Part shown: positions 1 through 63,654 of the stretch, piece by piece | Position numbering within the stretch: position 1 is the first letter of the stretch | Layout of the letters: each line of letters begins with the position of its first letter | Source of the DNA: Odiellus spinosus | Taxonomy: Eukaryota > Arthropoda > Arachnida > Opiliones > Phalangiidae | Assembly: GCA_963920705.1 (NCBI GenBank) | Contig: OY987237.1 | Location: 15,096,601-15,160,600, forward strand | Reading direction: 5' to 3' | DNA length: 64,000 bases | Notes under the pieces: model-generated | What the model was told of the DNA's origin: nothing | Database searches by the model: none | The model's input: only the letters and a program-made list of their open reading frames with translations | Position numbers and translations under genes: made by a program

Positions 1-494
1 CTAGCCGGTGGTAAAGTTGGTATGACTGGTATTGTTCTAGGAGACTGGTAAGTTACTGGTCTAGGCGGTGCAGTTGGTTGAGAGACGGATTTGGGGGCGT
101 CATTGCGATGGTTGATCACGGTGTGAGTGTGAAATTGTAAATTGGGGAATTTTGGGAAGTTGTTGAAAAAGTCCGCGAAACTTTTATGGAAGTCTAAGTT
201 GGGAGCCTTCCCTGGGCTGAACATTCCTCTGTATTCGAAACTGTTGGGTCCAACGTTGGTAAAGAAAAATGTTGGTTTAGTTTCAGTTCCATTCGTTGTT
301 AATATTTGTTGAACTTGACGTTGAACCGCTTGCGCCGTTGTTAAGTTGAAGCTACTCTGAGAAATGTTGGGCTTTCTTTGATTTTGGTTCGTATTCCGAT
401 TTGTAGACGGCGGTGGAGTTGATAGAGAGTGATGCGAAAGTGATAGTAGCACCCATAAAATAGAGATTGGATAGAATTTGTGCCGTGGAAACAT
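1..494 (-). CDS. 5' coding exon of a secreted Pro/Asn/Thr-rich protein (partial)
   Basis: Read on the minus strand, an open frame starts with ATG at 494-492 and runs without a stop to the window edge (164 codons plus two bases). The first ~25 residues (MFPRHKFYPISILWVLLSLS then HHSLS) look like a signal peptide: a basic start, a hydrophobic core, then small residues. The rest is low-complexity, rich in Asn, Pro, Thr, Phe and Gln, with sequons NIS, NLT and NGT, and ends in a proline-rich stretch. A splice acceptor (TTTCAG) abuts the ATG, so the 5' UTR is probably interrupted by an intron and this exon begins exactly at the start codon. I recognise no domain. Inference: a secreted or extracellular-matrix protein whose functional domain lies beyond the left edge. 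It could instead be an internal exon whose first codon happens to be Met, but the signal-peptide-like start argues for a true start. Confidence 0.6.
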   Translation of the reverse strand, partial: MFPRHKFYPISILWVLLSLSHHSLSTPPPSTNRNTNQNQRKPNISQSSFNLTTAQAVQRQVQQILTTNGTETKPTFFFTNVGPNSFEYRGMFSPGKAPNLDFHKSFADFFNNFPKFPNLQFHTHTVINHRNDAPKSVSQPTAPPRPVTYQSPRTIPVIPTLPPA

Positions 495-8173: not shown

Positions 8174-8510
8174 CAGAAGCCGATGAAACCCTCCTTTGAA
8201 GTCTATTACTCCCTGGTCTTGTCTACCCCTCTCTGTATGGGTTATTCTCAAAAGGCGCGATTCGTACGCCTCCTAACGGTAGATGTTTTCGGAGCGGGAG
8301 TTCGTCGAGCGAATATCTCTAGCAGCCTCGGAGTTCGTCCAAAAAACGTCGTCGTTTGTGGAGAGAGAGAATTTCCAATTTTCCGTAGACAGGGGGGATG
8401 AAGTAGGACCCCTTCTAACTCGTAAAATTGTGAATTTTACCCATAAAGAGAGGAGCGCTATATGGAACATTGGAGTAGTAGACTTCAAAGGAGGGTTTCA
8501 TCGGCTTCTG
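8174..8510 (+). mobile_element. 337-bp MITE (family B), copy 1, 7-bp TSD
   Basis: Starts CAGAAGCCGATGAAACCCTC and ends with its inverse; both ends share about 30 bp including CCTTTGAAGTC. It is flanked by perfect 7-bp direct repeats GTCTTAC (8167-8173 and 8511-8517). Open frames on either strand inside it recur in every copy and are by-products of the element. Non-autonomous: no transposase. Confidence 0.9.
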
Positions 8511-23342: not shown

Positions 23343-25229
23343 TTATTCGCCACGTCTTGGCAGACATGTTTGTCTTAATATGAGTTTCGCATTTTCCTCA
23401 TCGTCGTTTGGATGGTTAAAATCAGGATCTGTTAAAAAACCCAGACTTTTGAAAGTATCTCCGACTCCGAGTAGAATTTTGACCGGTCCGGGATTAGAGT
23501 CTTGGCTAAGGGCGACCACTATACCTTGGTTACTACTGCATACTGCTGTTTTTTTGTTGAAACCGGCCGAATGGTCGACGGGCAAAACGTCGCAACTTAC
23601 GTAGCTCGGGTTTCTGGAGTAAAACCCTTTCTGTCCAAACACGTATAAGTCATCGACGAATTTGACCACGGACAAATCCTTCTCTTGGAAGAGATTGACC
23701 ATGTAGGAAGACGCCACGCGGCAAAGATCGCGTTTTTCGGGATCATACTGCAAAACAGTCCTTCCATATACGAAGTAGACTTTACCGTCGGAGATGGACA
23801 TGGTTGTTGGGTAGTAAGACAATTTCATGTCGTGTTTCCCCCATATCCCCGTAGTTTCGTTCAGGATAAGTAAGACGGTTCTTTCGCTGCATATATTTGT
23901 CGCGTAGATATAAACGTGGCCTTTATGGACGACCATCTCGAGGTACTTAAAACGTAGATGAGATAATGGAACTGGAATTGATGGTCCGGTGAAGGTCACG
24001 GTATCCATATCTTGTACGTCCAACATTCCACCGCTAGTTAAAAAGTACGTGAGATTGTCTTCGATGGTGTACAGAACCACGTTCGTTTGCAAGACGGTTT
24101 CATAGAGTTCCCATCGCTTCGTGGTCGCCGAAAAGTCCGCCATGAAGATCCGATTAGCCTTGACTCGGACCCATGTTGCCCTCACCATCAAACTGTTCAT
24201 TTTCTCGCGGATTTCGGTCATTTGACGCGTCAGGATATGGGAAGCTAAACACTTGTCGTTTTTAAATAACTCTTCAATTTCGGCTTGGAAAGTTTCCATC
24301 GGTAGGTTTTCCAGTCCGAGATGTTCCGTTAGGGCGAAGAATCGATCCATCCCCTCGTCCTTGTGAGCCTCGATCCATTCGGCGACGCCTTTGAGTCGGA
24401 TTTGAACTGATTCGGGTTTGTTAAGCTCCTCCACTTGGTTTTCGTTCAGAAATTCCAGTGCCAATTCCGGATTTGTAAAAAGCTGCGAAGTTTTAAAGGA
24501 ACAGGTTCAACAACTTTTAATTATGTTTTTGCTCGGAATCTAATGCCAAAAACGGACAGGATACTCCGACTACATTAACTTATAGCCCCAATGATGCATT
24601 TTCAAATAGAAAACAACATTTACCTTTAAGACGTCAGACATCAACTGAAACTCCACGGTTTCCAGCGAATTTTCGTGATTGTACGTAATAAACTTCGTTT
24701 TAAGCGACTGAAAGGGAACCAGCATCGCGAACAACGCCAGTTTTAGCGTCTTCGCCACTTGAATCGCGTTAATCTCTTTGGCGAAAGTGTACCACCGTCC
24801 CCAGTCTTCAAAAAAAGGAATGTTTTTTATAAATTCATTCATCTCGAAGATGAAATCCTTGAGACACCACATGTCCGCTACTTTACGCGCGTCTACTAAC
24901 ATTTTCACCGAAGTCTTCGCGAAATCCATTTGGGCACCGTAAATGAAATCCAGTAACAATTGGAAGACTTCTCGGTCAATGTCCTGTAGTTGGATAATGT
25001 CTTGTCTAGATTCTTCGAAGGGTCCCGTTAACATAATTCTAAAATATCTCGTGGCGTTAATCAGCACGCTTTTGTGAGCGTTGAAGATTAGCCCATCTAC
25101 TTTTAACTTTACGTCGCAAGTTTCGTTTTGCTCGCGATCGAATAGAATTTGCGTCATACGAATAGCGGAACGACGTTGATGAAAAAAGTTGCAAAAGTCC
25201 GTTGCCGTACCCGTTTTTGATTTGGACAT
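23343..25229 (-). CDS. BTB-BACK-Kelch-like protein, two exons
   Basis: Exon 1 is 25229-24624 (202 codons) and exon 2 is 24482-23343 (379 codons plus TAA), joined in phase 0 across a 141-bp intron (donor GTAAAT, acceptor CGCAG). The product is 581 residues, close to the usual 550-620 of the KLHL family. Residues ~26-132 form a BTB/POZ domain (TCDVKLKVDG, FNAHKSVL, SRYF-like RYFRIML, LLLDFIYG). Residues ~140-260 fit a BACK domain, continuous across the splice (SDVLK joined to LFTNPELALEF). The C-terminal ~290 residues fit a degenerate Kelch propeller, with blades such as LLILNETTGIWGKHDMKLSY and SISDGKVYFVYG. KLHL proteins typically serve as substrate adaptors of Cullin-3 ubiquitin ligases; that role is inferred here. 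AATAAA overlaps the stop codon (23347-23342), so the 3' UTR may be only a few tens of bases. I cannot name the orthologue. Confidence 0.9.
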
Positions 25230-26040
25230 GTTTTCGTTTAAAATAAATGGAATAATAATCCTTCTCTACTGGGATTTCAAGCTTAAAGTAGTTCGTTTAT
25301 CTTCCAAACTTTGGACTTGACGTTTTTCAAAAGTTCTTATTTACTTCAATTATTTACAGATAAGATGTTTTTCTAAGTTAGTCATGAGAAAGTCACCAGT
25401 ATCAAACTATTTACTTAAGCTATAAATTTGTTCAACAGTACCTTTAGGCTTGAAACAGTTTTTAGGAAGATAAGACTTTTGCCATTATGGGATTTATGAT
25501 ATTTTTGGTGATTTTAATGGTGCGATCGAAACGGAATTTGATTGTTAGTTTTAGTTTTATCTGCGCCCATTCTTTGTGATGGTGTGGTCTTTAGTCACTG
25601 GTTGTTAAAGTTAATGAAACACGTCATCAAAAGTAAATTTAATTTTCCCAAATCAGAAGTAGTAAAACCTTTCGTGTTATTGTAAACTTCTGCTAATATC
25701 CATAACGGGATTGTTTAAAAACCCAAGAACATCCTAAAAATATTTTGGTGAGTGCAGAAACCTTTGGAGGGCCATGGGCCCCCTTTGGGCCACCCCTAGA
25801 ACAGTTCTGTTTATCTCAATTCTTCGATAAACCTCTTTTAATATTTCCAAATTTTTTATTCTAAAATTGAATAGAATTTTCCCTAAACCATAAAACATGT
25901 ATTAATAGGTCCTCCTTACTTACGTTGACAATATATCAAAGTTAATTTAACCACCCGAATCTTTATTTCTATAAATAGGCCATTATTATGTCAGAAGATT
26001 CGTCGAACGGGGTCAATTGGGGGTCAAAAATATAAAAATG
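25230..26040. other. Upstream region of the BTB-Kelch gene
   Basis: Should hold its promoter (minus strand). AT-rich; I see no TATA box in a convincing position and no exon on the plus strand that could belong to NAA15. Confidence 0.35.
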
Positions 26041-27896: not shown

Positions 27897-29839
27897 CTAA
27901 TATGGCACCGGCTGAGCTGAAAAAACTTCGAAACAAGCAACGCAAGGCGCGTAAAAGAGCGGAATTAGAACGCGAAAAGCAGACGGCCGCCCAAGAAAAG
28001 CGCGATCAACACATGAAATCGCGTCAACAACAAGACGGAACCGGTGGAGGAGGAGGTGGTGGCGGAGAAGTCGACAACCTAAAGGAAGAAGAGCTTATCC
28101 CCGAAAAACTAGCTCGGGTGAGCCCTTAATTACTACTCAGTATTTAAATCAATCTTTTATAACAACTATTCAAACCGTCAAGGGATCAAAAATTACAAAA
28201 GAATGAAAAGATTCCCTTTTCTTTTAAACTTTTCAAGTCGGTAATAATTACATTCTAAGTTCTAAAAAATGTGTTTTTTTTTTTTTCTTTTCATGACGTT
28301 GGATTTAGACTGACGAGCCTCTTGAGCAATCGATTCGTTTCCTGAAGCCACTCCAGTGCCTGGCCAGCGATAGGATTGAAACTCATCTACTGGCCTACGA
28401 AATCTTTTCCCGTAAAGGAAAACTCCTTTTGATGTTGCAATCGATTAAGAGAGCGCACCGGATAGAACCCAATCATCATAGACTTCATCATCACATCGGA
28501 CATTTCTATCTCCAAGGTGCTTAAATCGCTATATACAATTGGAATACGCTGTAAAAATGAAAATCAATTAATTTACGATGGTTTCAGTGCAAGAGAGATT
28601 ATCAGAGCTTCCGCCTCCAGTGGCGACCGTCCTTCAGCAGGAAATGAAAATCATCTACGGCACCAAAGACGCTCGACAACTCAATGAGCAGTTTCTAGTA
28701 ACGCATAAACATTCTCTGCCCCATTTATTACAAGGTAAGCGTTAAATTTCTAGTTTTGACTTCTTCGGGAAAGAAAAGAGAAAAACTTTTTTCTCTTCAA
28801 CGAAACTCGTATTGCCATCTATGATAGCTTCGTTTAATTCATCTCTTTGCGTTTTATTTTTATCCGTTTCTTAGGAGCTCTAGTTTTATATATGATTGAC
28901 AAAACATCTCAGGATAGAGCGCTTAAACTAGTTACTCAATTAAATAACCAATTGGAAGGAGTGAGCATTCATGTAAGTGTTTTTAAATTTTTATTTTTAA
29001 ATCGCGTGGGTTGAACCTATTAAATGATAACTATAAACTAAAAATATGAACTGAATCCAAATCTGTTAAATAGATAAGCTTTCTTATTTTTATCTTGAAC
29101 TTAATCGGCAAAGTATTTAGCCTACTTTTATTTATTGTATATAATTAGGCCTAATTATCTACATCATTGTATAGTCTACAATACAGTTAGGCCTATTTTC
29201 ATCTATTTTATCTAAAACATTGTTAAGCCTACTTTCATCTATTTTATCTAAAACATTGTTAAGCCTACTTTCATCTATTTTATCTGCAATATAGTTAAGC
29301 CTACTTTTATTTGTCTACAATATAGTTAAGCCTACTTTTATTTATTGTCTACAATATAGTTAAGCCTACTTTTATTTATTGTCTACAATATAGCTAAGCC
29401 TACTTTTATTTATTGTCTACAATATAGTTAAGCCTACTTTTATTTATTGTCTACAATATATCTAAGCCTACTTTTATTTGTCTACAATATAGTTAAGCCT
29501 ACTTCATCTATTTTACAATGGATAAAATATTTTTCTCGTTTTTCTTTTCAGACGTTAAGTGAAATTTTAATCGCGTTGAATTCAAATAGTTTGGGCCCCA
29601 TATCCGAGGAATTTATTGTCGAATTTAAACTAAAATGTCACGAACTGTTTCCCCAAGCGACTGTGTTTTTAGCCGTAGTCGATACGCCAGTCAGCGAGAA
29701 CGGTGACCACGAGGAAGATCGACAAACGAATGACTCTCCCATCTTAGATTCGTCTAAAGAATGCGCCAATGACAATGATCGCGGCGTGACTGTTGGCGAA
29801 TTGACCAATCACGTGAACAGTATAGCTCAGGAAGAATAA
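27897..29839 (+). CDS. NAA15: NAA15, C-terminal half (five exons)
   Basis: Exons 27897-28117, 28309-28516, 28588-28734, 28875-28972 and 29552-29839 have GT-AG borders and keep frame, giving ~320 residues ending in EEN-like QEE then TAA. Diagnostic matches to animal NAA15, the auxiliary subunit of the NatA N-terminal acetyltransferase: ANM-like start, ELKKLRNKQRKARKR (basic NARP1 segment), ELIPEKLAR, ETHLLAYEIFSRKGKLLLM, SLPHLLQG, CHELFP. NAA15 anchors the NAA10 catalytic subunit to ribosomes; this part is the C-terminal region, and the N-terminal TPR half (over 500 residues in other animals) is absent from the window. The first exon starts in mid-reading after an acceptor (TTTTAG|CT), so an upstream exon is expected. 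A poly-Gly run (residues ~49-56 from the Met at 27902) is lineage-specific. AATAAA lies 2 nt after the stop (29842). Either a very long upstream intron or a broken/duplicated copy; intact frames favour a live gene. Confidence 0.9.
29119..29510 (+). repeat. ~34-bp tandem repeat in NAA15 last intron
   Basis: About eleven units containing AGTTAAGCCTACTTTTATTT and GTCTACAATAT, with two 35-40-bp variants at the left (CATCTATTTTATC). The array fills most of the 579-bp intron between 28973 and 29551, ending ~40 bp before the acceptor, so it may lengthen the otherwise short intron. Confidence 0.9.
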
Positions 29840-33051: not shown

Positions 33052-36000
33052 ATGTCTTCGCAATATCGTAAAACCAGTAAGTTGTTTTCATATTCTATTC
33101 AATAACTTTGCATTATTATTTAAAATTAGATCTTTTAATAGTGGTTACGTTAAAGTTGTTTTAATTAAACTTTACTAATGATTTTAAACCCTTTATTTCT
33201 CAGTTATCACTGGTTCCATTGGATTTTTATTCCTCATAATTGGCATTATTGGTATCACAACGTTACCAACCATTTTTAACGCCATCTTACAATTGGTAAG
33301 TGGATGATAACGTATTTTTCATAACTTTTATCACAGTTCTTAGCTAGTAAACAAAAATATAGAAAAGTTAGCGAGGTGCACTTTGCTTTTCCACTTTCTT
33401 ATTTTTCAAGTGTAGTGGTTTTTTTTTTTTTATTCTTTTGAAGTAGCGCGTATTACATCCGTTTTAAAGTACTTTTACTAGAGGGTGGATTGGGAGTCTA
33501 GGCAATGAGAATGGCTTCCTTTATGAATTATTTAGATTATAGACAAAACAATTTTGTTGTCAAGAGCTGATAAGAAAAGCAGCCTTATTTATTCCAATTT
33601 TAACAGAATAAAAATACAAAAACCCCGCGTAATGATCAAGTACTATAAGTCAATAGTTTTTTACTCCCACATACAGTAGTTACATAAATTTAGTAGATTT
33701 ACACGTTTTTAACGCGATTTAGTTTGATTTTTAAATGTAATCTACAAAATTATCTCAAACTGTAGCTAATAAATTTGTTTAAAGGGATGGTGAAAAGGAA
33801 AATAAATTTTTTATCGATTCTACTTTGATGTTTTAAAGTATCTAAATTGTGCAAAAAATTGGTAAAGATTCCAATTTTTCGCTTTTAGAATTTAAAGGAT
33901 AACCTAAGACTAAACAAGACTCCCCTTTAGCTTCGTAAAATATCTACCGCACTCGAAGTTGTACCTCAATCGATATTGAAAGAGTGTGCCGTACCATGTG
34001 TCGCTGAGATTTTATTATTGCTAAAGATACAGGGGCTTCTTTTGATTAGTCTGAGGCTATAATTTTAATTAAATTAGAAAGCAGAATCCTCTCCACCCGC
34101 CCTTTAATTATCGCTAGCAGAGCGCTATCAGTTAAAATTATCTTAGGATCAAATTCAAAACATAGTTTTGAGATTAATTTCTGCAATAAATATAACCCTG
34201 GTATTTTTTCTTCCCTTGGGAAAAAACCGTAGAAACCTGTTTCTTTATCCTAACTGAAAGATTAGACACCTGTATTGCAATTTTGCAACATTCCTGAGGT
34301 TCCCCCACCCCTTAAAATGTTTGAGTTTTAACCATAGGACCCCCACTGAATAGAGATAGGTGTGTTTGTGTTCATTGTGATATTCTTTGGTATGTGAAGA
34401 TTTTTCTGGTCAATGTCATTGAAAACCCGCCCCTTTTTTGAGGCTAAAACCACTTGTTAAAGCTAAAAGACCCTGGTGGCATGCATCCTCCAGGTGTATG
34501 GTTACTTTTAGACCAGGTGTTTTGTCCAAATTGTCCAGAGAAATGGTTTGGAAAAGTTAAGCTTGTTATTAAGGTTTCAAAAATAAACTAGATAAATGAG
34601 AATAAGCAAAAATATTTCACCTACCAAGAATATAATTTTGGTTTAGTCTAATCATATCAGATTTAATCAGAATTTAATATGATTGGCCCAGATTAAAAAC
34701 CAATGAGACGAGACTCTACTCCCAAGTGGAAATAAATTTTAGAGTGACTTTTTATATTTAAAAAAATTATATAATTTCCCTTTAATCAAATTATCCATTA
34801 GATATCAAGCCGCAAAAAGTTTTTTAGTTAATCTTTTTTATCAAGATACGTCTACTAGGTCACTAATAGTCACGCGAATTGTTATGTCATGGAATAGGAA
34901 TTTGTCGCTTGGCACAAAGTTGATATTTAGTTTAGAAAAAAATAATTCTCGCCTTAGTTAGTCCTTGACAAAGGTTCAAGCTTGAGATCCCGAGACGGGA
35001 AAACTATATTGAATGCTTAGATAACCGTTCAATTTTGTTTTTTAAGGTGAACTTCCTTTTTAAAATTACTTTAAAGGGAGTGTAAACTAAAATTAAAATC
35101 GCCTACTAACGTGTGCGACGTCATAGGGACATTTTAAATTTATGATTGAGTTTTTGCGTTAAATCAAAGTTGAAGCGTATATCAAGCTTTTCTTTTAAAG
35201 GGGCTATCTGCGATTTTTAAAGTCGTCTTTTCTCGCTTAGTAGAAAATTATTTTAAAGGCGCATATAATAGAGCAGATAGGGCCTTTAACCCCCGTTATC
35301 AGGCTTCCAAGTGACTTAAAAGCGGAGATCTAAATGGAAAAGAGAATGCAAAAAGCTTGAAAATGGGGATTACTCCGATTTGTTAGGCGTAATGGCACAA
35401 TGTCAACTATTACCCTCCACCTTACAGAGGTCCTCAAGAACAGTACAAAAGTCTTTAAGACTTCCCTAATACTTCTTGACATAATGAAAGACTTCCCCAA
35501 GACCTCTAAAGACTACGTAAGACACCTGAAAGACTTCCCTAAGACCCCTTAAGACTAAATGTTTTTGTTAAGAGAGAGCTTCATACTCCCTTTAATGTGA
35601 TTGATGTCATAGTTAAAAGAAACAAGTTTTCTTAATCTCATACTCTGTAGATATTTAAATAATGGTTACGTAGAACTTAAAATATGTCTAAATGATGTAA
35701 ATGTCTATAAATTTAATGAGTTCTAAGCCAAAAAAATGAAATTAACAATTTTTTGTGAGAATTGCTCTTTAAAATGTATCTGTTGCTATGGAAATGATAG
35801 TGAATGATCTAAAAATTAATTTACAATGACATTGAATTTGTTGAATATATTATGCATTGTGTTTCGCTGCTGATTCTAGTTTAGAAATAATATGTTTTGT
35901 AATCTTAGGAGTTTAAAGGAAATATTATATAAAATTTCCTTATTGTACCTTTAAAATCTTGGGAAAAAATTACGTATAATATAATAGTTAACTTAGTATC

Positions 36001-39000
36001 TCGTTTCAGAAGCATATCGTTGCCAAAAAAGTCTTGGATACTTTTTCAGAGCTCTAGAGATCTATTAGAACTATTATACTCTTTAAACCTGTGATTACTA
36101 AAGCCAATTTAAAGTCTCCTTTACTAGCTTAGCAGATGACGTTGACCATAAATTGTAAAGTCAAAGCTTAATTATGTACATAACGGAAGATCATTTTAAA
36201 GGGGCACATTTCTGAGCAGATAGGGCCTTTAAAAGAGTTTTTATTTGCTGTTATATATTTAAGCATTTAGTAATATCAGAAGAAAAAAAATATTTTCAAC
36301 AAATTTAAAGTTTTTTAAGCATGATACTGATCCGTATAAGTTCGTGAAAGTCTAGTTGAGGTACGACCTTCTGATAAGTCTAGTGGAAAACCTGCTATTA
36401 AATTACATACGCCTGCAAAACTAGTTGCCATTTATAGTTCTTTGTAATCCACCCACTGGATTGTTGAAATAATATAGTGAAAGGCATTACGGGAGATTAA
36501 ATTCGCTTACATTAAAATACCCTTTACATTTTTCATTTGACTCTAATGCGGGAGACAAAAACTATTTGAATTTTGGCTTGGACTTGCGTAGTTGTGTTAG
36601 AAAGTGATAAAACTTTGTCTACCTAGTAATTTTGAAAGGGAAAGTGGACTTAATAGATGATAATATAAATTCTGACTTTGTCCCAACCTTGAAAAAAGGC
36701 AACATCTTCCGTAGAAATGGGTTCTATTTAACGGCTTTTTGTTAGTTTCAAGGTTGGCAAAAGTATAGAAAATCCTACAACATCATCAATACAAATGGAT
36801 GTTTTTAACGGATATTTTATCCGTTTCCAAGATTATTTTATAAGACTGCCTATTAAGTTTATTTTTTTAAAGAGTTTCATCGTATAAAAATTGAAATTTC
36901 AGAAACTTCCATTATCGCAAGGATCAGAAAGCTACGAAATGTGGAAAAATATTCCATTGCCCATTTACTTTCGAGCTTACATGTTTCACATTGAAAATCC
37001 TGCTGAAATTTTAAACCATAACGCTAAACCTAACCTTACTGAAAAGGGGCCTTACACTTTTAGGTATTTACTATCAATTTTGTCCTTCCCAGATGCGTAA
37101 ATTAATACGAATTACATTAATTTTTTTAAGATTATATTGGACGAAAGAAAATATTACGTGGAACCCAAATGACACTATTTCATTCAGGGAATATTCTCGA
37201 TACGAGTTTTTACCAAATATGTCAGCTGGGGAATTGTCGGATGAAATTATGACGCTTAATGGGCCGATGGCGGTACGTTCTCTATCTAGCTTCATTCTCC
37301 CTTTAATACAAATATTAATATTTGAATCTAAATCAAAAGGTTGCTAGTTCGATCGTCATGAATAAGCCATTATGGGAGCGGGTTATCTTTTCTATTACGT
37401 TAAGAGTGTTAAATGAAAAGATCTTCGTCACTCATACTGTGGAAGAGTTGTTGTTTAAGGGTTACTACGATTATTTGAATATAATTGGCCGAACGATTGA
37501 CAAAAGAATTCCCGATCGCAAGGGATATTTTGCTTGGTTTTACGGAGTAAGTTTAACCACTTAAACTTTAATCGACGAAAATTGAGACTCTTTTGATTAA
37601 AAGAAAAAAACATTTTTACGCAGAAAAATATGTCACACGATGGGCTTTTTAATATAAATACTGGGAAAGGAGATTTATCTAAATCTAATTTGATTAACTC
37701 CTGGAATGGAGAACCGTAAGTTTGTAAATTAAACCGCAAACTGGTTGACATCCCCTAATTTTATTCAACGCGTAGTAATCTGGATTTTTGGTCCGGACCA
37801 ACGTGCAATGAAATTAACGGAACAAGTAATTAAAACGTAATTCCATTGACAACAAGCGAGATTAAACCGTAAAATTTTTGATCCCCGTAGACGGAGAATT
37901 AAGTCCACCCGTCCAAAAAAATCAAGAAATTCTTTACTTCTTTCGAACCGATCTATGCAGGTCAGTGTTTAGTCGAAATCCTACGAATTTAACGAACGTT
38001 TTTACAAAGATTTCCCCCACTTAGATCTTGGCCTTTAACGTATAACGAAGACGTGAGTCATTACGACATTGATTCGAAACGATTCGAGGCTTTGCCAACG
38101 GTTTTGGCCAACACCTCTATCAATCCCGATAACTATTGCTTCGAGCCCGCGGATGGGGATTTGCCATCCGGCGCTATCGATATTAGTCCGTGCCAATTTG
38201 GAGCTCCCGTGGTCCTAAGTCAACCCCATTTCTATCAAGGTGATCCTGAGCTCAGAGAGAATGTCACCGGAATGGAACCCAATAAAACGCTTCATAGTTT
38301 CCACATTGATTTGGAGCCAGTAAGATCATTTCATTTTATATCGCTGTTTGGGCAAAATTTATATTTTTTGGGTAAACTAATTCAGTGATTGATATTTTTT
38401 ATAGAATAGTGGAATACCACTCAGTATCGCAGCCAGAGCGCAAGTCAATGTTAAACTTCGTAGAGTTCCATCTGTTAGGTATTTAAAAGTTTTTGTATCA
38501 GTTTTTTTAGATTTAAAAATCCTATTTATCCAATTTCCTTAAAAATCCAGAAATAACAAGGGTTCTTATAAAATCCCTCAATTTTCTATCAAATCCCTCA
38601 ATTTTATTCAGTTTTCTATCGAATCTTGTAATTTTATTCAGTTTTCTATCAAATCCCGTAATTTTATTCAGTTTTCTATCAAATCTTGTAATTTTATTCA
38701 GTTTTCTATCAAATCCCTCAATTTTATTCAGTTTTCTATCAAATCCCTCAATTTTATTCAGTTTTCTATCAAATCCCGTAATTTTATTCAGTTTTCTATC
38801 AAATCCCGTAATTTTATTCAGTTTTCTATCAAATCCCGTAATTTTATTCAGTTTTCTATCAAATCCCGTAATTTTATTCAGTTTTCTATCAAATCCCGTA
38901 ATTTTATTCAGTTTTCTATCAAATCCCGTAATTTTATTCAGTTTTCTATCAAATCTTGTAATTTTATTCAGTTTTCTATCAAATCCCTCAATTTTATTCA

Positions 39001-41113
39001 GTTTTCTATCAAATCCCTCAATTTTATTCAGTTTTCTATCAAATCCCTCAATTTTATTCAGTTTTCTATCAAATCCCGTAATTTTATTCAGTTTTCTATC
39101 AAATCCCGTAATTTTATTCAGTTTTCTATCAAATCCCGTAATTTTATTCAGTTTTCTATCAAATCCCATAATTTTATTCAGTTTTCTATCAAATCCCGTA
39201 ATTTTATTCAGTTTTCTATCAAATCCCGTAATTTTATTCAGTTTTCTATCAAATCCCTCAATTTTATTCAGTTTTCTATCGAATCTTGTAATTTTATTCA
39301 GTTTTCTATCAAATCCCGTAATTTTATTCAGTTTTCTATCAAATCTTGTAATTTTATTCAGTTTTCTATCAAATCCCTCAATTTTATTCAGTTTTCTATC
39401 AAATCCCTCAATTTTATTCAGTTTTCTATCAAATCCCGTAATTTTATTCAGTTTTCTATCAAATCCCGTAATTTTATTCAGTTTTCTATCAAATCCCGTA
39501 ATTTTATTCAGTTTTCTATCAAATCCCGTAATTTTATTCAGTTTTCTATCAAATCCCGTAATTTTATTCAGTTTTCTATCAAATCCCGTAATTTTATTCA
39601 GTTTTCTATCAAATCCCGTAATTTTATTCAGTTTTCTATCAAATCCCGTAATTTTATTCAGTTTTCTATCAAATCCCGTAATTTTATTCAGTTTTCTATC
39701 AAATCCCGTAATTTTATTCAGTTTTCTATCAAATCTTGTAATTTTATTCAGTTTTCTATCAAATCCCTCAATTTTATTCAGTTTTCTATCAAATCCCTCA
39801 ATTTTATTCAGTTTTCTATCAAATCCCTCAATTTTATTCAGTTTTCTATCAAATCCCGTAATTTTATTCAGTTTTCTATCAAATCCCGTAATTTTATTCA
39901 GTTTTCTATCAAATCCCGTAATTTTATTCAGTTTTCTATCAAATCCCATAATTTTATTCAGTTTTCTATCAAATCCCGTAATTTTATTCAGTTTTCTATC
40001 AAATCCCGTAATTTTATTCAGTTTTCTATCAAATCCCTCAATTTTATTCAGTTTTCTATCGAATCTTGTAATTTTATTCAGTTTTCTATCAAATCCCGTA
40101 ATTTTATTCAGTTTTCTATCAAATCTTGTAATTTTATTCAGTTTTCTATCAAATCCCTCAATTTTATTCAGTTTTCTATCAAATCCCTCAATTTTATTCA
40201 GTTTTCTATCAAATCCCGTAATTTTATTCAGTTTTCTATCAAATCCCGTAATTTTATTCAGTTTTCTATCAAATCCCGTAATTTTATTCAGTTTTCTATC
40301 AAATCCCGTAATTTTATTCAGTTTTCTATCAAATCCCGTAATTTTATTCAGTTTTCTATCAAATCCCGTAATTTTATTCAGTTTTCTATCAAATCCCGTA
40401 ATTTTATTCAGTTTTCTATCAAATCCCGTAATTTTATTCAGTTTTCTATCAAATCCCGTAATTTTATTCAGTTTTCTATCAAATCCCGTAATTTTATTCA
40501 GTTTTCTATCAAATCCCGTAATTTTATTCAGTTTTCTATCAAATCTTGTAATTTTATTCAGTTTTCTATCAAATCTTGTAATTTTATTCAGTTTTCTATC
40601 AAATCCCGTAATTTTATTCAGTTTTCTATCAAATCCCGTAATTTTATTCAGTTTTCTATCAAATCTTGTAATTTTATTCAGTTTTCTATCAAATCTTGTA
40701 ATTTTATTCAGTTTTCTATCAAATCCCGTAATTGGCTAAAGATTCTCTATTTGTGAAATTGCAGCCAATTCGACAATGTACCTGAGATAATATTTCCAGT
40801 CTTATGGCAAGAAATTGTAAGAATCACATTGTAAGAAATTGTAACGTAATCACGTAATAATTAACATTACGAATCAATTCAGAGCGGAGATGTCACGCCC
40901 GAACTGGCTGATGAGCTTAAACGCTCGATAGAGTTGCCTCATTTCATAATGGAGTTATCTTTCTATTGCGCGATGGGTTTCGGTCTAGCGGTGGCTATCG
41001 TAGCTGGACTATGGGCCATTTACGTCAGTTCGACGCTCAAAAAGGAATCAGTTGAGTCTCTTTCGTTTAAACCCAAATCAATCGTTCTCGATAAACAAGA
41101 GCTTAAAGTTTGA
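33052..41113 (+). CDS. CD36/SCARB-family receptor, 12 coding exons
   Basis: Reconstructed exons: 33052-33076, 33204-33295, 36903-37063, 37131-37272, 37340-37546, 37624-37715, 37776-37825, 37891-37960, 38025-38319, 38405-38478, 40765-40816, 40883-41113. All borders are GT-AG and the phases agree, giving 1491 bp, 496 residues, a normal length for CD36/SR-B1/LIMP-2. Start MSSQYRKT is short and cytoplasmic, then a membrane segment (residues ~9-33, TGSIGFLFLIIGIIGITTLP). The ectodomain has family hallmarks: SYEMWKNIPLPIYFRAYMF, NPAEIL, EKGPYTFR, NDTISFREY, LINSWNG, DFWSGPTCNEINGT, LSQPHFYQGDPELRENVTGM, sequons NLT, NIT, NDT, NMS, NGT, NKT, and paired cysteines. The last exon carries the second membrane segment (SFYCAMGFGLAVAIVAGLWA) and a 30-residue basic tail. 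Family role: binding lipids or lipoproteins at plasma membrane or lysosome. Which subtype (SCARB1, SCARB2, CD36) cannot be settled here. Introns 3-8 are only ~60-80 bp; intron 2 is 3.6 kb, intron 10 holds a minisatellite. Confidence 0.92.
35071..35597 (-). mobile_element. TTAAAGGGAG-ended element in intron 2
   Basis: Left tip TTAAAGGGAGTGTAAAC and right tip CATACTCCCTTTAA are inverted. Inside are the inverted copies of two repeats from the left of the window: the CTTTAAAGG/GCAGATAGGGCC segment (35195-35290) and the GTCTT-rich segment (35420-35570). Probably a non-autonomous TTAA-type element about 0.53 kb long. Confidence 0.5.
36113..36236 (-). mobile_element. Small TTAAAGG-bounded repeat, copy 2
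   Basis: Reverse-complement match to 2580-2705 (shared GCAGATAGGGCCTTTAAA, CTAGCTTAGCAGATGACG-like words, AAAGTCAAAGCT). Lies in intron 2. Confidence 0.55.
36683..36757 (+). repeat. 75-bp inverted-repeat element
   Basis: CCAACCTTGAAA at the left and TTTCAAGGTTGG at the right are perfect inverted 12-mers. No target duplication seen. Confidence 0.45.
38581..40733 (+). repeat. 30-bp minisatellite, 72 monomers, with higher-order structure
   Basis: Fills intron 10 of the CD36-family gene. Each 30-bp unit contains GTTTTCTATC(A/G)AAT, a variable six-base part and AATTTTATTCA. No indels occur: units stay in register over 2.15 kb. The variable part takes forms CCCGTA, CCCTCA, CTTGTA and CCCATA, arranged in a repeated order that starts anew at 38581, 39241 and 40021 (22-unit and 26-unit blocks, then a truncated block). 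On the minus strand the array is open for 475 codons as a decapeptide repeat (GFDRKLNKIT), because 30 is a multiple of three; I do not regard it as a gene. Confidence 0.97.
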
Positions 41114-42219
41114 TCTTTTTTTCCATCGCACTGAGTTTTGTGACCTTTTTCACTCACCTTTGACCGCTTTTGGCCCACATACTAACATTTTGCTGCCAAT
41201 TTAAGCGCGTGTTAACCGTGTTTGTGCCGCGGTACGCTTTTTGTTAAAAAAAAACCAATGATTTTGATTAATTTTAGATTTTTAATTATTTTTAATATAA
41301 TTTCATTAACTTGGGGGTTGAAGGTCAGTATTACAATTTTATTCATTCCTAGGTTTGTGATTTTACGATTGTGTGCCAAATTTATCGTAATTCGAGGGAT
41401 TTTTTTAAGCACGTTAAGTTTTTAGCGCGTAAAGGTTTAAGTTTTTACAAAGAATTGTGCCAATTTTATTCTCAAGTTTCAAAAATATTTTTAATATCGT
41501 AGCGCATAATCTTGATATTAGCTCGTAACTATTTTCAATTTATAATATAATAAATAATTAATTAGTAAGGGACGGGTCGTGTTAGCGTATAAATTAAAAA
41601 GATTAGAGCGTAAATAAATCAATTAACGCATAAATTAAATATGGGTTTAGAATTTCGAGCATGATCAAAAATTTGTGACGGTAATTTTTTATAGAGATTT
41701 TGTGTTAATAAATCTTATTTTTAGCGCTACTCTTTTATTTTTAGCACTCTTTTATTTTTAGCACCATTTTATTTTTAGAGCTTCCCTTTCACGCGCATTT
41801 TTATTATAATTTCACTAATTATTTCTTTAAATTTTATAACAAAGATAAATCAGCGTATTTTGGGAATAAATGCTTGGGTTTTATATTTTTGGTGTCACTG
41901 TGTCGGTAACGCATTAATGCTTTTAAACATTGCTATTAAATTGTTTTAAAAATCTTAATTATATTAATTTTTGCGAATAAATTAAATAGATTTGTTAGTT
42001 TTGTTAAAAATGCATGCGTTATTTTATCGTATCGTTTGTAGCTGCTCTTATAAATACGCTTGGTGCTTAAATGATTTTTTTCCCATACCTTTTGTTGTTT
42101 ATTTGGTTTGCTAATAAACAATTTATTTTTTGCTTATAATTAATTTAAATGTTACATTTGCTTAATTATTTAAGTCTAATTTATAAATATGAGATATTTT
42201 CTCGTCTGAAACAGGTTTA

Positions 42220-42640
42220 GAATCTAAATAAGACCAGTTTACGAATCAAAAATCAAGTTTATTAATTGCTCGGACCAGTTCTTTATTTTAATTTAAAAAA
42301 AATGAGAGTCGGACCAGTTTTTTTATTTAAAAAATGAAAGCTGCTGGTCCCAGAGACTAGTTTAACTCGAACCCATTAGAAATATAATTATTGGGACTAC
42401 GAATTGGACCAGTTTTGTTTTTTAAGATCCGCATTCACGCTAGAGAATTCCTAACTAGTTTATAAGTCAGAAACTAAGTTTATTCATTTCTTGGACCAGT
42501 TTTTAATTTAAAAAAATGAAGGTCGATGGTCCCTGGGACTAGTTTATTCTTATCCTTTAGAAATATAATAATTGGGACTACTAATTGGACCAGTTTTGTT
42601 ATTTAAGACACAAAAGGCGTATTCACGCTTTGAAACTACT
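42220..42640 (+). repeat. Diverged ~180-bp tandem duplication
   Basis: GGACCAGTTTTTTTATTTAA then GGTCCCAGAGACTAGTTTA (from ~42313) recurs as GGACCAGTTTTTAATTTAA and GGTCCCTGGGACTAGTTTA (from ~42493). Lies between the two alternative ends of the CD36-family gene. Confidence 0.7.
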
Positions 42641-42917
42641 TTTAACAGTTTTCAATTGAAGCTAAGCAGACGACACTAACCAACCAATTAAACCGGAAGA
42701 AACATCTTAAGGGTGTTTTTATATAGCAGATGACGCTTCTAATTATTTGTGTCATACTTATGATACAATTAACTTATGCTAAACTTGTTACTTGATATAA
42801 TAATTTACGCGTAAGTTGCAACTTTTGAAAGGCATAAATTCCTATCTGAAAATCATGATCTTTGGCTTAAAGTTAAATGCTTTTTAGATCGCAAACTTAT
42901 TACATTTTACATTTCAG

Positions 42918-42983
42918 GGTGACTCTGAAACCAAACCGATCATCAACGGTGCCGATGATAATATCAACGATAATGAAGATTAA
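42918..42983 (+). CDS. Candidate alternative last exon of the CD36-family gene
   Basis: After an acceptor TTTCAG a frame of 21 codons (GDSETKPIINGADDNINDNE then D) ends in TAA, and AATAAA follows at 43013-43018. It is in phase 0, so it can be joined to exon 12 through an internal donor: TAC|GTCAGT at 41023/41024 (better site) or TCA|GTTGAG at 41049/41050 (weaker, but keeps the basic STLKK stop-transfer residues). The resulting tail would be acidic, with ETKPII resembling the [DE]XXXL[LI] lysosomal sorting motif, in contrast to the 41113-ending form. Mammalian SCARB1 is known to make two tails by alternative splicing (SR-BI/SR-BII). This exon is inferred from sequence alone. Confidence 0.55.
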   Translation, partial: GDSETKPIINGADDNINDNED

Positions 42984-43019
42984 AACAAAATCATCGTTTT
43001 TTTAATTAGTTGAATAAAA

Positions 43020-43900
43020 AGATTCAATGAAATATCTTCATTACCAAAAATTAGTGAGATTTTAATTATGGTTAATTACGTTACCATAATGTGCCTTTTT
43101 GTTTTTTCTAGGGTTTAATGTATCGATAGCCTTTCTTATTCGTTGCCATTTATTATAAAAATTTACCGGTAATTTTTAAATAAGCCTTTTTTTAGAATTA
43201 GTATCGACTACGGTTATTCTACGTTACATTTTACCATTTAAACGGTACTAATATGATGATATCAGTCATAAAATCTGACTTTTACCGAGGTAATCTCTCT
43301 GCTACATATCTATTTGATACTATTTTCATTTTAAAATGGTACCGGTGTAACCGGTAATCTACAGTTTGTGACTGTGCTAAAAATATTCCTTCATCGTGCT
43401 ACTTTCGTTAAAAAAAAATTGTTTTTAAAACATCAAAACTTTACCAAATTGAGGTGTTAATATAGAGCCATATCACTTATATTTTATTACAAATCTTATA
43501 GAATTATATAACTGCTTAATTTTATTTTATTAATTACAAATAAAATAAAATGCTCAATATATATCGTTAACCAAAAATTTCGACCTTAGACAACGTAGAA
43601 ATTATAAATGTTTTATCATTAATTCGCCTTAATTAAATGATAAATTGAGCTGGATTCGTTTGAGATTATTTTTATTTGATTGTGTTTGACTTTTGTAAAG
43701 TTTTAGAGCGTGTCATTGAAAATAAACGTTTAAATTTGACGGGTTTTTGTTGTTTTTTTAACAGCGCCATCTATTAACTTTATTTGGTCGGTTTTGAAGA
43801 GAGGGGCATTCGAACGCGGGCATTTCAATGCATCTCCATCTTCATGGTCAGGTTACGTATTACTTTTCCGTTGTATCTCTTAATTTTACAAATTAATTTG
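43020..43900. other. AT-rich stretch, no gene seen
   Basis: Between the receptor gene and the tRNA; nothing recognised. Confidence 0.4.
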
Positions 43901-43906
43901 AAAAAA
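43901..43906 (-). terminator. Pol III terminator of tRNA-Gln
   Basis: Run of six T on the minus strand, five bases past the tRNA 3' end. Confidence 0.85.
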
Positions 43907-43910
43907 TGTC

Positions 43911-43982
43911 AGGTCCCACCGAGATTTGAACTCGGATCGCTGGATTCAGAGTCCAGAGTGCTAACCATTACACCATGGAACC
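43911..43982 (-). tRNA. tRNA-Gln (anticodon CTG)
   Basis: Minus strand, 72 nt with discriminator, no intron, no encoded CCA. Acceptor stem GGTTCCA pairs with TGGGACC (one G-U). The D arm has TGGTGTAATGGTTAGCAC (A box), the anticodon arm CTGGA-CTCTGAA-TCCAG puts CTG at the anticodon, and the T arm has CCGAG-TTCAAAT-CTCGG (B box). It decodes CAG glutamine codons. Confidence 0.97.
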
Positions 43983-44829
43983 TTACAGCATTTGTCTTAA
44001 TTTTGGCACAAATTTAATTAAATGTCTTTTATTTAATTTAATTATACAAATTTTAGACATATTTCACGATGACATTGTTTCATTTAACGTCTTGGTGCGT
44101 AAAATAATTATTTACAAAAGAAGATTTAGTTGCTTATTTTCAGTACACCTTTAAAGTGGTCGCGGGGTCAAACTGGATCGTCTGCACTTTTAAATTTGCA
44201 ACCGTCATTGTAATTAACAGTGAATCTTGGACCACTTCGATGTCTTCGAATTTGTGCCATTAAACGTCCAGTTGCGTCGTCACTATGCATTAATAAAGGT
44301 AAAACTTAACATTTTTTTATTTGCTAAGAGGTTCAATATGCAAATTAAGATGAATTATTATGATATAACTATTATTAGCATATGCTATTAGCAAATTAGA
44401 TCTCTAACAAAAATCACATCTATGGTCAGATTTAGTTATAAACGAATCCATATTTTAAAATATATTGTTCCTGCTTCAACCGGAACCCAAAATATATTCA
44501 TTAATTCATTTTCCCCGGTAACTAGCTGCAATTACAACATTAATGTACGAAGGTTAGAACATTAGCATATATAGTTCATGTATTTCTGACATTAGGGTCT
44601 CATCATCAATCCTAAATCGATATTTATATGCTTTATCATAGTCAAATTTTAATAAATTTAACTTAAATAGACATTTATTTAACTCTAATTGAAAGGTGCA
44701 TTATAGAAAAGTGCTAATAAGGTTCTGGAATGTTCGCGTATTGTTTTGTTTAGTAAACTTTTTGTGACGTTATTTTTACGAGTGACGTTTCATTTTTAGT
44801 CATTTCGTTGTTCCTTGGTTTTCAGGAAA

Positions 44830-60918: not shown

Positions 60919-63654
60919 GATTTTAATTTCGAACAATAAAATTGACATGAGCCACTCGAAAAGGATGCCTCGCCACTCGACACAAAATGAGCAAAAATCC
61001 AAAAATGACCCCTATCTTTAAATGACCGTAACTTTTCACTATGATCTCCTATACCAAAACTGATTGTACCGTTAGAAAGTAGACATTCCGTTCATTAATT
61101 TCAAACAATAAAATTGACATGAGCCACTCGAAAAAGATGCCTCGCCACTCGACACAAAATGAGCAAAAATCCAAAAATGACCCCTATCTTTAAATGACCG
61201 TAACTTTTCACTATGATCTCCTATACCAAAACTGATTGTACCGTTAGAAAGTAGACATTCCGTTCATTAATTTCAAACAATAAAATTGACATGAGCCACT
61301 CGAAAAAGATGCCTCGCCACTCGACACAAAATGAGCAAAAATCCAAAAATGACCCCTATCTTTAAATGACCGTAACTTTTCACTATGATCTCCTATACCA
61401 AAACTGATTGTACCGTTAGAAAGTAGACATTCCGTTCATTAATTTCAAACAATAAAATTGACATGAGCCACTCGAAAAAGATGCCTCGCCACTCGACACA
61501 AAATGAGCAAAAATCCAAAAATGACCCCTATCTTTAAATGACCGTAACTTTTCACTATGATCTCCTATACCAAAACTGATTGTACCGTTAGAAAGTAGAC
61601 ATTCCGTTCATTAATTTCAAACAATAAAATTGACATGAGCCACTCGAAAAAGATGCCTCGCCACTCGACACAAAATGAGCAAAAATCCAAAAATGACCCC
61701 TATCTTTAAATGACCGTAACTTTTCACTATGATCTCCTATACCAAAACTGATTGTACCGTTAGAAAGTAGACATTCCGTTCATTAATTTCAAACAATAAA
61801 ATTGACATGAGCCACTCGAAAAAGATGCCTCGCCACTCGACACAAAATGAGCAAAAATCCAAAAATGACCCCTATCTTTAAATGACCGTAACTTTTCACT
61901 ATGATCTCCTATACCAAAACTGATTGTACCGTTAGAAAGTAGACATTCCGTTCATTAATTTCAAACAATAAAATTGACATGAGCCACTCGAAAAAGATGC
62001 CTCGCCACTCGACACAAAATGAGCAAAAATCCAAAAATGACCCCTATCTTTAAATGACCGTAACTTTTCACTATGATCTCCTATACCAAAACTGATTGTA
62101 CCGTTAGAAAGTAGACATTCCGTTCATTAATTTCGAACAATAAAATTGACATGAGCCATTCGAAAAGGATGCCTCGCCACTCGACACAAAATGAGTAAAA
62201 ATCCAAAAATGACCCCTATCTTTAAATGACCGTAACTTTTCACTATGATCTCCTATACCAAAACTGATTGTACCGTTAGAAAGTAGACATTCCGTTCATT
62301 AATTTCAAACAATAAAATTGACATGAGCCACTCGAAAAAGATGCCTCGCCACTCGACACAAAATGAGTAAAAATCCAAAAATGACCCCTATCTTTAAATG
62401 ACCGTAACTTTTCACTATGATCTCCTATACCAAAACTGATTGTACCGTTAGAAAGTAGACATTCCGTTCATTAATTTCAAACAATAAAATTGACATGAGC
62501 CACTCGAAAAAGATGCCTCGCCACTCGACACAAAATGAGCAAAAATCCAAAAATGACCCCTATCTTTAAATGACCGTAACTTTTCACTATGATCTCCTAT
62601 ACCAAAACTGATTGTACCGTTAGAAAGTAGACATTCCGTTCATTAATTTCAAACAATAAAATTGACATGAGCCACTCGAAAAAGATGCCTCGCCACTCGA
62701 CACAAAATGAGCAAAAATCCAAAAATGACCCCTATCTTTAAATGACCGTAACTTTTCACTATGATCTCCTATACCAAAACTGATTGTACCGTTAGAAAGT
62801 AGACATTCCGTTCATTAATTTCAAACAATAAAATTGACATGAGCCACTCGAAAAAGATGCCTCGCCACTCGACACAAAATGAGCAAAAATCCAAAAATGA
62901 CCCCTATCTTTAAATGACCGTAACTTTTCACTATGATCTCCTATACCAAAACTGATTGTACCGTTAGAAAGTAGACATTCCGTTCATTAATTTCAAACAA
63001 TAAAATTGACATGAGCCACTCGAAAAAGATGCCTCGCCACTCGACACAAAATGAGCAAAAATCCAAAAATGACCCCTATCTTTAAATGACCGTAACTTTT
63101 CACTATGATCTCCTATACCAAAACTGATTGTACCGTTAGAAAGTAGACATTCCGTTCATTAATTTCAAACAATAAAATTGACATGAGCCACTCGAAAAAG
63201 ATGCCTCGCCACTCGACACAAAATGAGCAAAAATCCAAAAATGACCCCTATCTTTAAATGACCGTAACTTTTCACTATGATCTCCTATACCAAAACTGAT
63301 TGTACCGTTAGAAAGTAGACATTCCGTTCATTAATTTCAAACAATAAAATTGACATGAGCCACTCGAAAAAGATGCCTCGCCACTCGACACAAAATGAGC
63401 AAAAATCCAAAAATGACCCCTATCTTTAAATGACCGTAACTTTTCACTATGATCTCCTATACCAAAACTGATTGTACCGTTAGAAAGTAGACATTCCGTT
63501 CATTAATTTCGAACAATAAAATTGACATGAGCCACTCGAAAAAGATGCCTCGCCACTCGACACAAATTGAGCAAAAATCCAAAAATGACCCCTATCTTTA
63601 AATGACCGTAACTTTTCACTATGATCTCCTAGACCAAAATTGATTGCACCGTTA
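60919..63654 (+). repeat. 172-bp satellite, 16 monomers
   Basis: The anchor TTCATTAATTTC recurs exactly every 172 bp from 61091 to 63499, with a more diverged first unit from ~60919; no indel in the whole array. Monomers are near-identical; variants (CGAACAATAAA, AAAAGGATGCC, GAGTAAAAATCC) mark units near 60930, 62134, 62340 and 63510. A further decayed unit edge seems present at ~60870-60918. The length is close to one nucleosome repeat, like many centromeric or subtelomeric satellites. Confidence 0.97.

Follow-up and report, generated by a model that had tools for sequence, protein, structure and literature searches.

Which cytoplasmic tail does the CD36/class B scavenger receptor (SR-B) encoded in this locus carry, and does splicing choose between two of them? 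The window analysed here, a stretch of 64,000 nucleotides of Odiellus spinosus DNA, holds a receptor gene whose twelfth and last modelled exon runs on past the second transmembrane segment (TM2) to a stop at 41113, and a short open reading frame further downstream that could supply another ending.

The receptor gene and its family

The gene model, obtained by spliced alignment, is as follows.

33052..41113, forward strand: CD36/SR-B receptor gene, 12 coding exons (spliced alignment; Pfam CD36)
33052-33076, 33204-33295, 36903-37063, 37131-37272, 37340-37546 and 37624-37715, forward strand: exons 1-6
37776-37825, 37891-37960, 38025-38319, 38405-38478, 40765-40816 and 40883-41113 (read-through stop), forward strand: exons 7-12

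By sequence, the protein is a member of the CD36/class B scavenger receptor family, its ectodomain match extending over most of the chain (PF01130, E 5.6e-147, residues 14-462, profile positions 2-460 of 463). Hydrophobic stretches at both ends of the translation, judged by eye, read as two TM segments flanking the ectodomain, and on the same by-eye reading the short cytosolic tails complete the layout typical of CD36 and class B scavenger receptors. Twelve coding exons are likewise usual in vertebrate CD36 genes (PMC4030837). The closest solved structure is LIMP-2 (5uph, E 1.5e-71); we dropped this match as proof of lysosomal identity, since C15p and C14a, the paralogs checked in the same way, also have LIMP-2 as their nearest structure and the match is thus unspecific. 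A CD36 search across the 443-Mb genome returned 23 matches out of 26 scored candidates (longest 711 nt), counts that are lower bounds, and among these 23 there was no intronless full-length (processed) copy in which a junction would be frozen. Scans of the genome-contig and viral-contig collections for orthologues from contaminating relatives confirmed none. Elsewhere in the same genome, at C14:2.86-2.94 Mb, rough gene models place about four CD36-family genes within about 75 kb.

Several features of the window are recorded for orientation. Most of intron 10 of the receptor gene consists of a tandem repeat with a 30-bp unit in about 72 copies (38578-40733, 96% matches); the unit is stop-free in several frames and so gives rise to spurious ORFs, 737-740 codons long, on each strand. 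On the reverse strand, 23343-25265 encodes a BTB-domain protein (24570-25265, PF00651, E 3.4e-19) and, after it, an ORF of 387 codons for which Pfam gave no match up to an E of 1. A 172-bp satellite occupies 60923-63654 in about 16 copies (99% matches).

Two possible ends and the sites that would join them

Beyond TM2, the following elements bear on how the transcript may end.

40883..41023, forward strand: part of exon 12 that precedes the candidate donor, encoding the ectodomain end and TM2 (...AVAIVAGLWAIY)
41024..41029, forward strand: candidate 5' splice site TAC/GTCAGT, phase 0, at the TM2 end; score 5.3
41024..41113, forward strand: read-through tail VSSTLKKESVESLSFKPKSIVLDKQELKV and stop; codon score -3.6
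41051..41056, forward strand: second in-phase GT, TCA/GTTGAG, a very poor donor; score -4.5
41549..41554, forward strand: first AATAAA 3' of the read-through stop
41024..42917, forward strand: proposed last intron, 1894 nt, predicted from donor 41024 and acceptor 42918
42918..42983, forward strand: candidate terminal tail exon and stop, proposed from its ORF, acceptor score and codon score
42927..42944, forward strand: codons for ETKPII, an acidic-dileucine-like motif
43013..43018, forward strand: AATAAA 3' of the tail exon

Eight CD36-family genes of the genome supplied 101 modelled introns; 30 were removed by hand as doubtful, and the remaining 71 served to build the models with which splice sites were scored. 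The phase-0 ORF at 42918-42980, closed by TAA at 42981-42983, codes for GDSETKPIINGADDNINDNED and follows the acceptor ACATTTTACATTTCAG/G, which at 7.9 beats 58 of the 71 modelled acceptors and is equalled or exceeded by 1.4% of the 3151 AGs in the window. The exon that the sequence-only reading had described here, in phase 0 behind a good acceptor and with a stop and a nearby AATAAA, is therefore confirmed as a set of features, although the poly(A) signal by itself carries little weight because an AATAAA lies within 60 nt of 10.7% of noncoding positions. A second open frame of 28 codons crosses the exon; we rejected it as coding on its noncoding-like score (-8.0 for its first 26 codons). Searched against its own genome, the tail exon has a single match, itself, and blastn of 42900-43060 (the exon with its flanks) over the window together with 160 kb of paralog DNA likewise returned only self.

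The coding signal of the exon is strong. With codon statistics trained on paralogs only, it scores 10.2, a value that no noncoding open window of 21 codons reaches (0 of 1892); these windows had also trained the background. On synonymous choice only, its score is 4.1, and 2.1% of noncoding windows are as high. The full score is also higher than that of any of 445 windows cut from the coding sequence of the gene itself, so that much of it is owed to an unusual Asp/Asn-rich composition. An earlier codon model, with this gene included in the training, found 10 of 1986 noncoding acceptor-started ORFs (12-60 codons) scoring as high, one of them with an equally good acceptor. Acceptor and coding signal together total 18.1, which makes the exon the top candidate in 41069-44000; the total was attained in none of 500 dinucleotide shuffles, but among 24 real stretches of the window treated as noncoding, 3 hold a candidate as good.

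An uncut scan of the same DNA yielded four candidates of at least 18.1, at 29552 and 8177 on the forward strand and at 356 and 28078 on the reverse strand, and two of these look like genuine exons. The 95-codon ORF at 29552-29839, upstream of the receptor gene, has a very strong acceptor and an AATAAA after it and looks like an unassigned terminal exon, with no above-cut-off Pfam match; the 118-codon ORF at 1-356 (reverse strand) stands behind an acceptor near the window edge with a coding-like score and is possibly an exon from a different gene. The ORF at 8177-8398 opens with KPMKPSFEVYYS, which recurs near the C14 receptor cluster at about 2.906 Mb, and is probably a dispersed element. The candidate at 28078 is without explanation. 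The proposed last intron itself holds two copies of an element (42311-42427 and 42493-42608, 84% identical over 117 columns), and a tRNA-Gln (CTG) gene lies just downstream of the tail exon at 43910-43983 on the reverse strand.

The read-through tail presents a different picture. Its 29 codons (41024-41110) score -3.6, as high a value being found in 33% of 965 noncoding open windows and as low a value in 10% of 437 windows of the gene itself; it has no positive coding sign and is noncoding-like, though a short tail could still be coding. Set against the tail exon score, which none of the 1892 windows reaches, this makes it doubtful that the KQELKV ending is the default, as had been assumed.

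The splice donor that would replace this ending is credible. GTCAGT at 41024 scores above 12 of the 71 modelled donors and is the sole good donor at the TM2 end of this gene; of the 3095 GTs in the window, 7% do at least as well. Within the gene's exons, 1 of 443 codon boundaries carries an equally strong phase-0 GT, and the chance of meeting one across 13 noncoding codon boundaries is about 3%. Of the two in-phase donors claimed from the sequence, this one stands; the other lies at 41051 rather than 41050 and scores below all 71 modelled donors. The GT at 41051 is near the position of the GTGAGT donor of paralog C15p and would place the motif better, but we rejected it as the main site on its score.

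Paralogs point the same way. Seven were modelled and six examined at the TM2 exon, C14c being left out, and all six have a phase-0 donor at the TM2 end, with scores from 4.1 to 10.9 (C15p 7.7 and 7.6, C13p 8.5, C14b 10.9, C14d 8.9, C11 5.4, C14a 4.1). The donors of C11 and C14a are weak: in C11 a phase-0 GT within TM2 scores slightly higher (5.7), and C14a has another one eight codons on (4.9). Scanning about 3 kb past the six donors for tail exons gave best totals of 8.4 to 15.2, of which only that of C15p is plausible, so the post-TM2 introns of the paralogs are predicted only. Because all six paralogs have the donor, a GT as strong as 41024 is rare and mammalian SR-BI forms differ just past TM2, an intron at this position is probably old in the family, judging from sequence, and a separate tail exon would therefore be the normal condition.

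The sorting motif and the competing readings

The downstream exon was proposed to add a signal close to the [DE]XXXL[LI] type used by LIMP-2. A strict match is absent from its peptide; ETKPII, with Ile in place of the consensus Leu, is the only fit to the relaxed [DE]xxx[LIVM][LIVM]. Presence of the motif means little by itself, since reshuffling the 21 residues yields [DE]xxx[LIVM][LI] in 8.2% of cases and a strict dileucine motif is present in 15% of type I protein tails (PMC2882754). In a reporter study, a Pro directly before the dileucine and an Asp-Asp six residues past it each raise endocytosis about twofold, and a tail depending on an Ile-Leu pair was internalised (PMC2882754). In the tail exon, Pro precedes Ile-Ile and Asp-Asp begins four residues after it; the Glu, the Pro and the downstream Asp-Asp resemble an endocytosis-promoting context. 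With donor 41024, the motif Glu falls at tail residue 4, very near the membrane, and no basic residues directly follow TM2. The LIMP-2 signal reportedly needs a particular position (Ogata and Fukuda, 1994).

We favour, with a probability of roughly 0.55, the reading that 42918-42983, joined in phase 0 to donor 41024, is the usual last exon of a CD36/SR-B receptor and encodes its cytoplasmic tail. That it is a real exon joined directly after TM2 is probable, and an ordinary tail is more likely than a special one because the read-through tail is noncoding-like, the exon has a strong coding score and six of six examined paralogs have a donor there. Exon 12 would then be spliced at donor 41024, where TM2 ends, to 42918, and the main receptor tail would be acidic, with a relaxed acidic-dileucine motif (E-x-x-P-I-I, then D-D). 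This motif may bind clathrin adaptors and so keep the receptor cycling through endosomes and lysosomes; what the computation shows is the ORF, the site scores, the coding signature and the donors in paralogs, whereas use of the junction, adaptor binding and lysosomal sorting by the tail are things we infer. The KQELKV tail would be made only if donor 41024 went unused, most likely as a by-product or minor form. Provided that the junction is used, the gene model ending at 41113 gives the receptor the wrong tail, and location predictions based on that tail are wrong as well.

A tail switch is a less likely alternative: donor 41024 would be used in some transcripts and not in others, which makes exon 12 a composite terminal exon, and each of the resulting tails would direct the receptor to a different membrane. 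Both tails are open and properly ended, an AATAAA follows each (at 41549 and 43013), the donor is below median strength as a regulated site might be, and mammalian SR-BI offers a precedent, variant 1 being a surface form while variant 2 resides in endosomes and lysosomes (PMC11585690). However, AATAAA is common in the AT-rich DNA of the window, and the absence of a coding signature in the read-through tail tells against this reading. More specifically, a switch like that of SR-BI and SR-BII might have arisen independently in an arthropod SR-B gene by optional use of the old post-TM2 donor, with KQELKV at the plasma membrane and ETKPII...DD in endolysosomes; we regard this as doubtful. Were both tails used, the gene would be an independent case of splicing re-addressing a lipid receptor.

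It is unlikely, in our estimate, that the 42918 ORF goes unused, as a chance ORF or as a relict exon left after loss of an ancestral donor, with the receptor ending in KQELKV. A relict donor would be hinted at by GTTGAGT, a non-donor by score near the GTGAGT donor position of the C15 paralog; the read-through tail also retains the basic KK after TM2, and equally good totals occur in those 3 of 24 window pieces. Yet the codon score above all noncoding windows, the good acceptor, the right phase and the second usable donor oppose it, and a relict would be expected to decay. Skipping of exon 12, by which 40816 would join 42918, also in phase 0, and yield a form without TM2, seems very improbable: its phase is compatible and the gene model itself uses the donor at 40817, but the tail would lie outside the cytosol and the anchor would be lost, with nothing specific in its favour.

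Comparison with known receptors

In mammals, the splice form of SR-BI departs from SR-BI itself in its 44 C-terminal residues, directly after TM2 (PMC11585690), and the probable phase-0 joining after TM2, likened to SR-BI from the outset, falls at the same place. In SR-BI/SR-BII, splicing at this point alters the cytoplasmic tail, and in our receptor it would do so by a junction of predicted sites. The alternative form SR-BII is said to need a C-terminal dileucine motif for endocytosis (Eckhardt, 2006). The means would differ: SCARB1 skips exon 12, whereas the receptor would putatively choose between read-through and a last exon.

Among arthropods, Drosophila Emp is, like the receptor, an SR-B with a cytosolic C-terminal tail, a likeness of family; its C-terminus comprises residues 484-520, and it is located at apical membranes and Rab5/Rab7 endosomes (PMC10564452). 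The words 'isoform' and 'splice' have no hits in the main text of that paper. In the literature surveyed, as titles and abstract openings with few subscription papers, we came across none that describes alternative tails for an arthropod SR-B, a weak negative.

LIMP-2 (SCARB2) shares with the receptor a CD36 ectodomain held between two TMs, and its tail carries a Leu-Ile type signal, DERAPLI. The predicted receptor tail, in contrast, would place Ile-Ile near the membrane and continue for 12 further residues. Set beside these systems, the tail exon is of a familiar kind and belongs to a known family.
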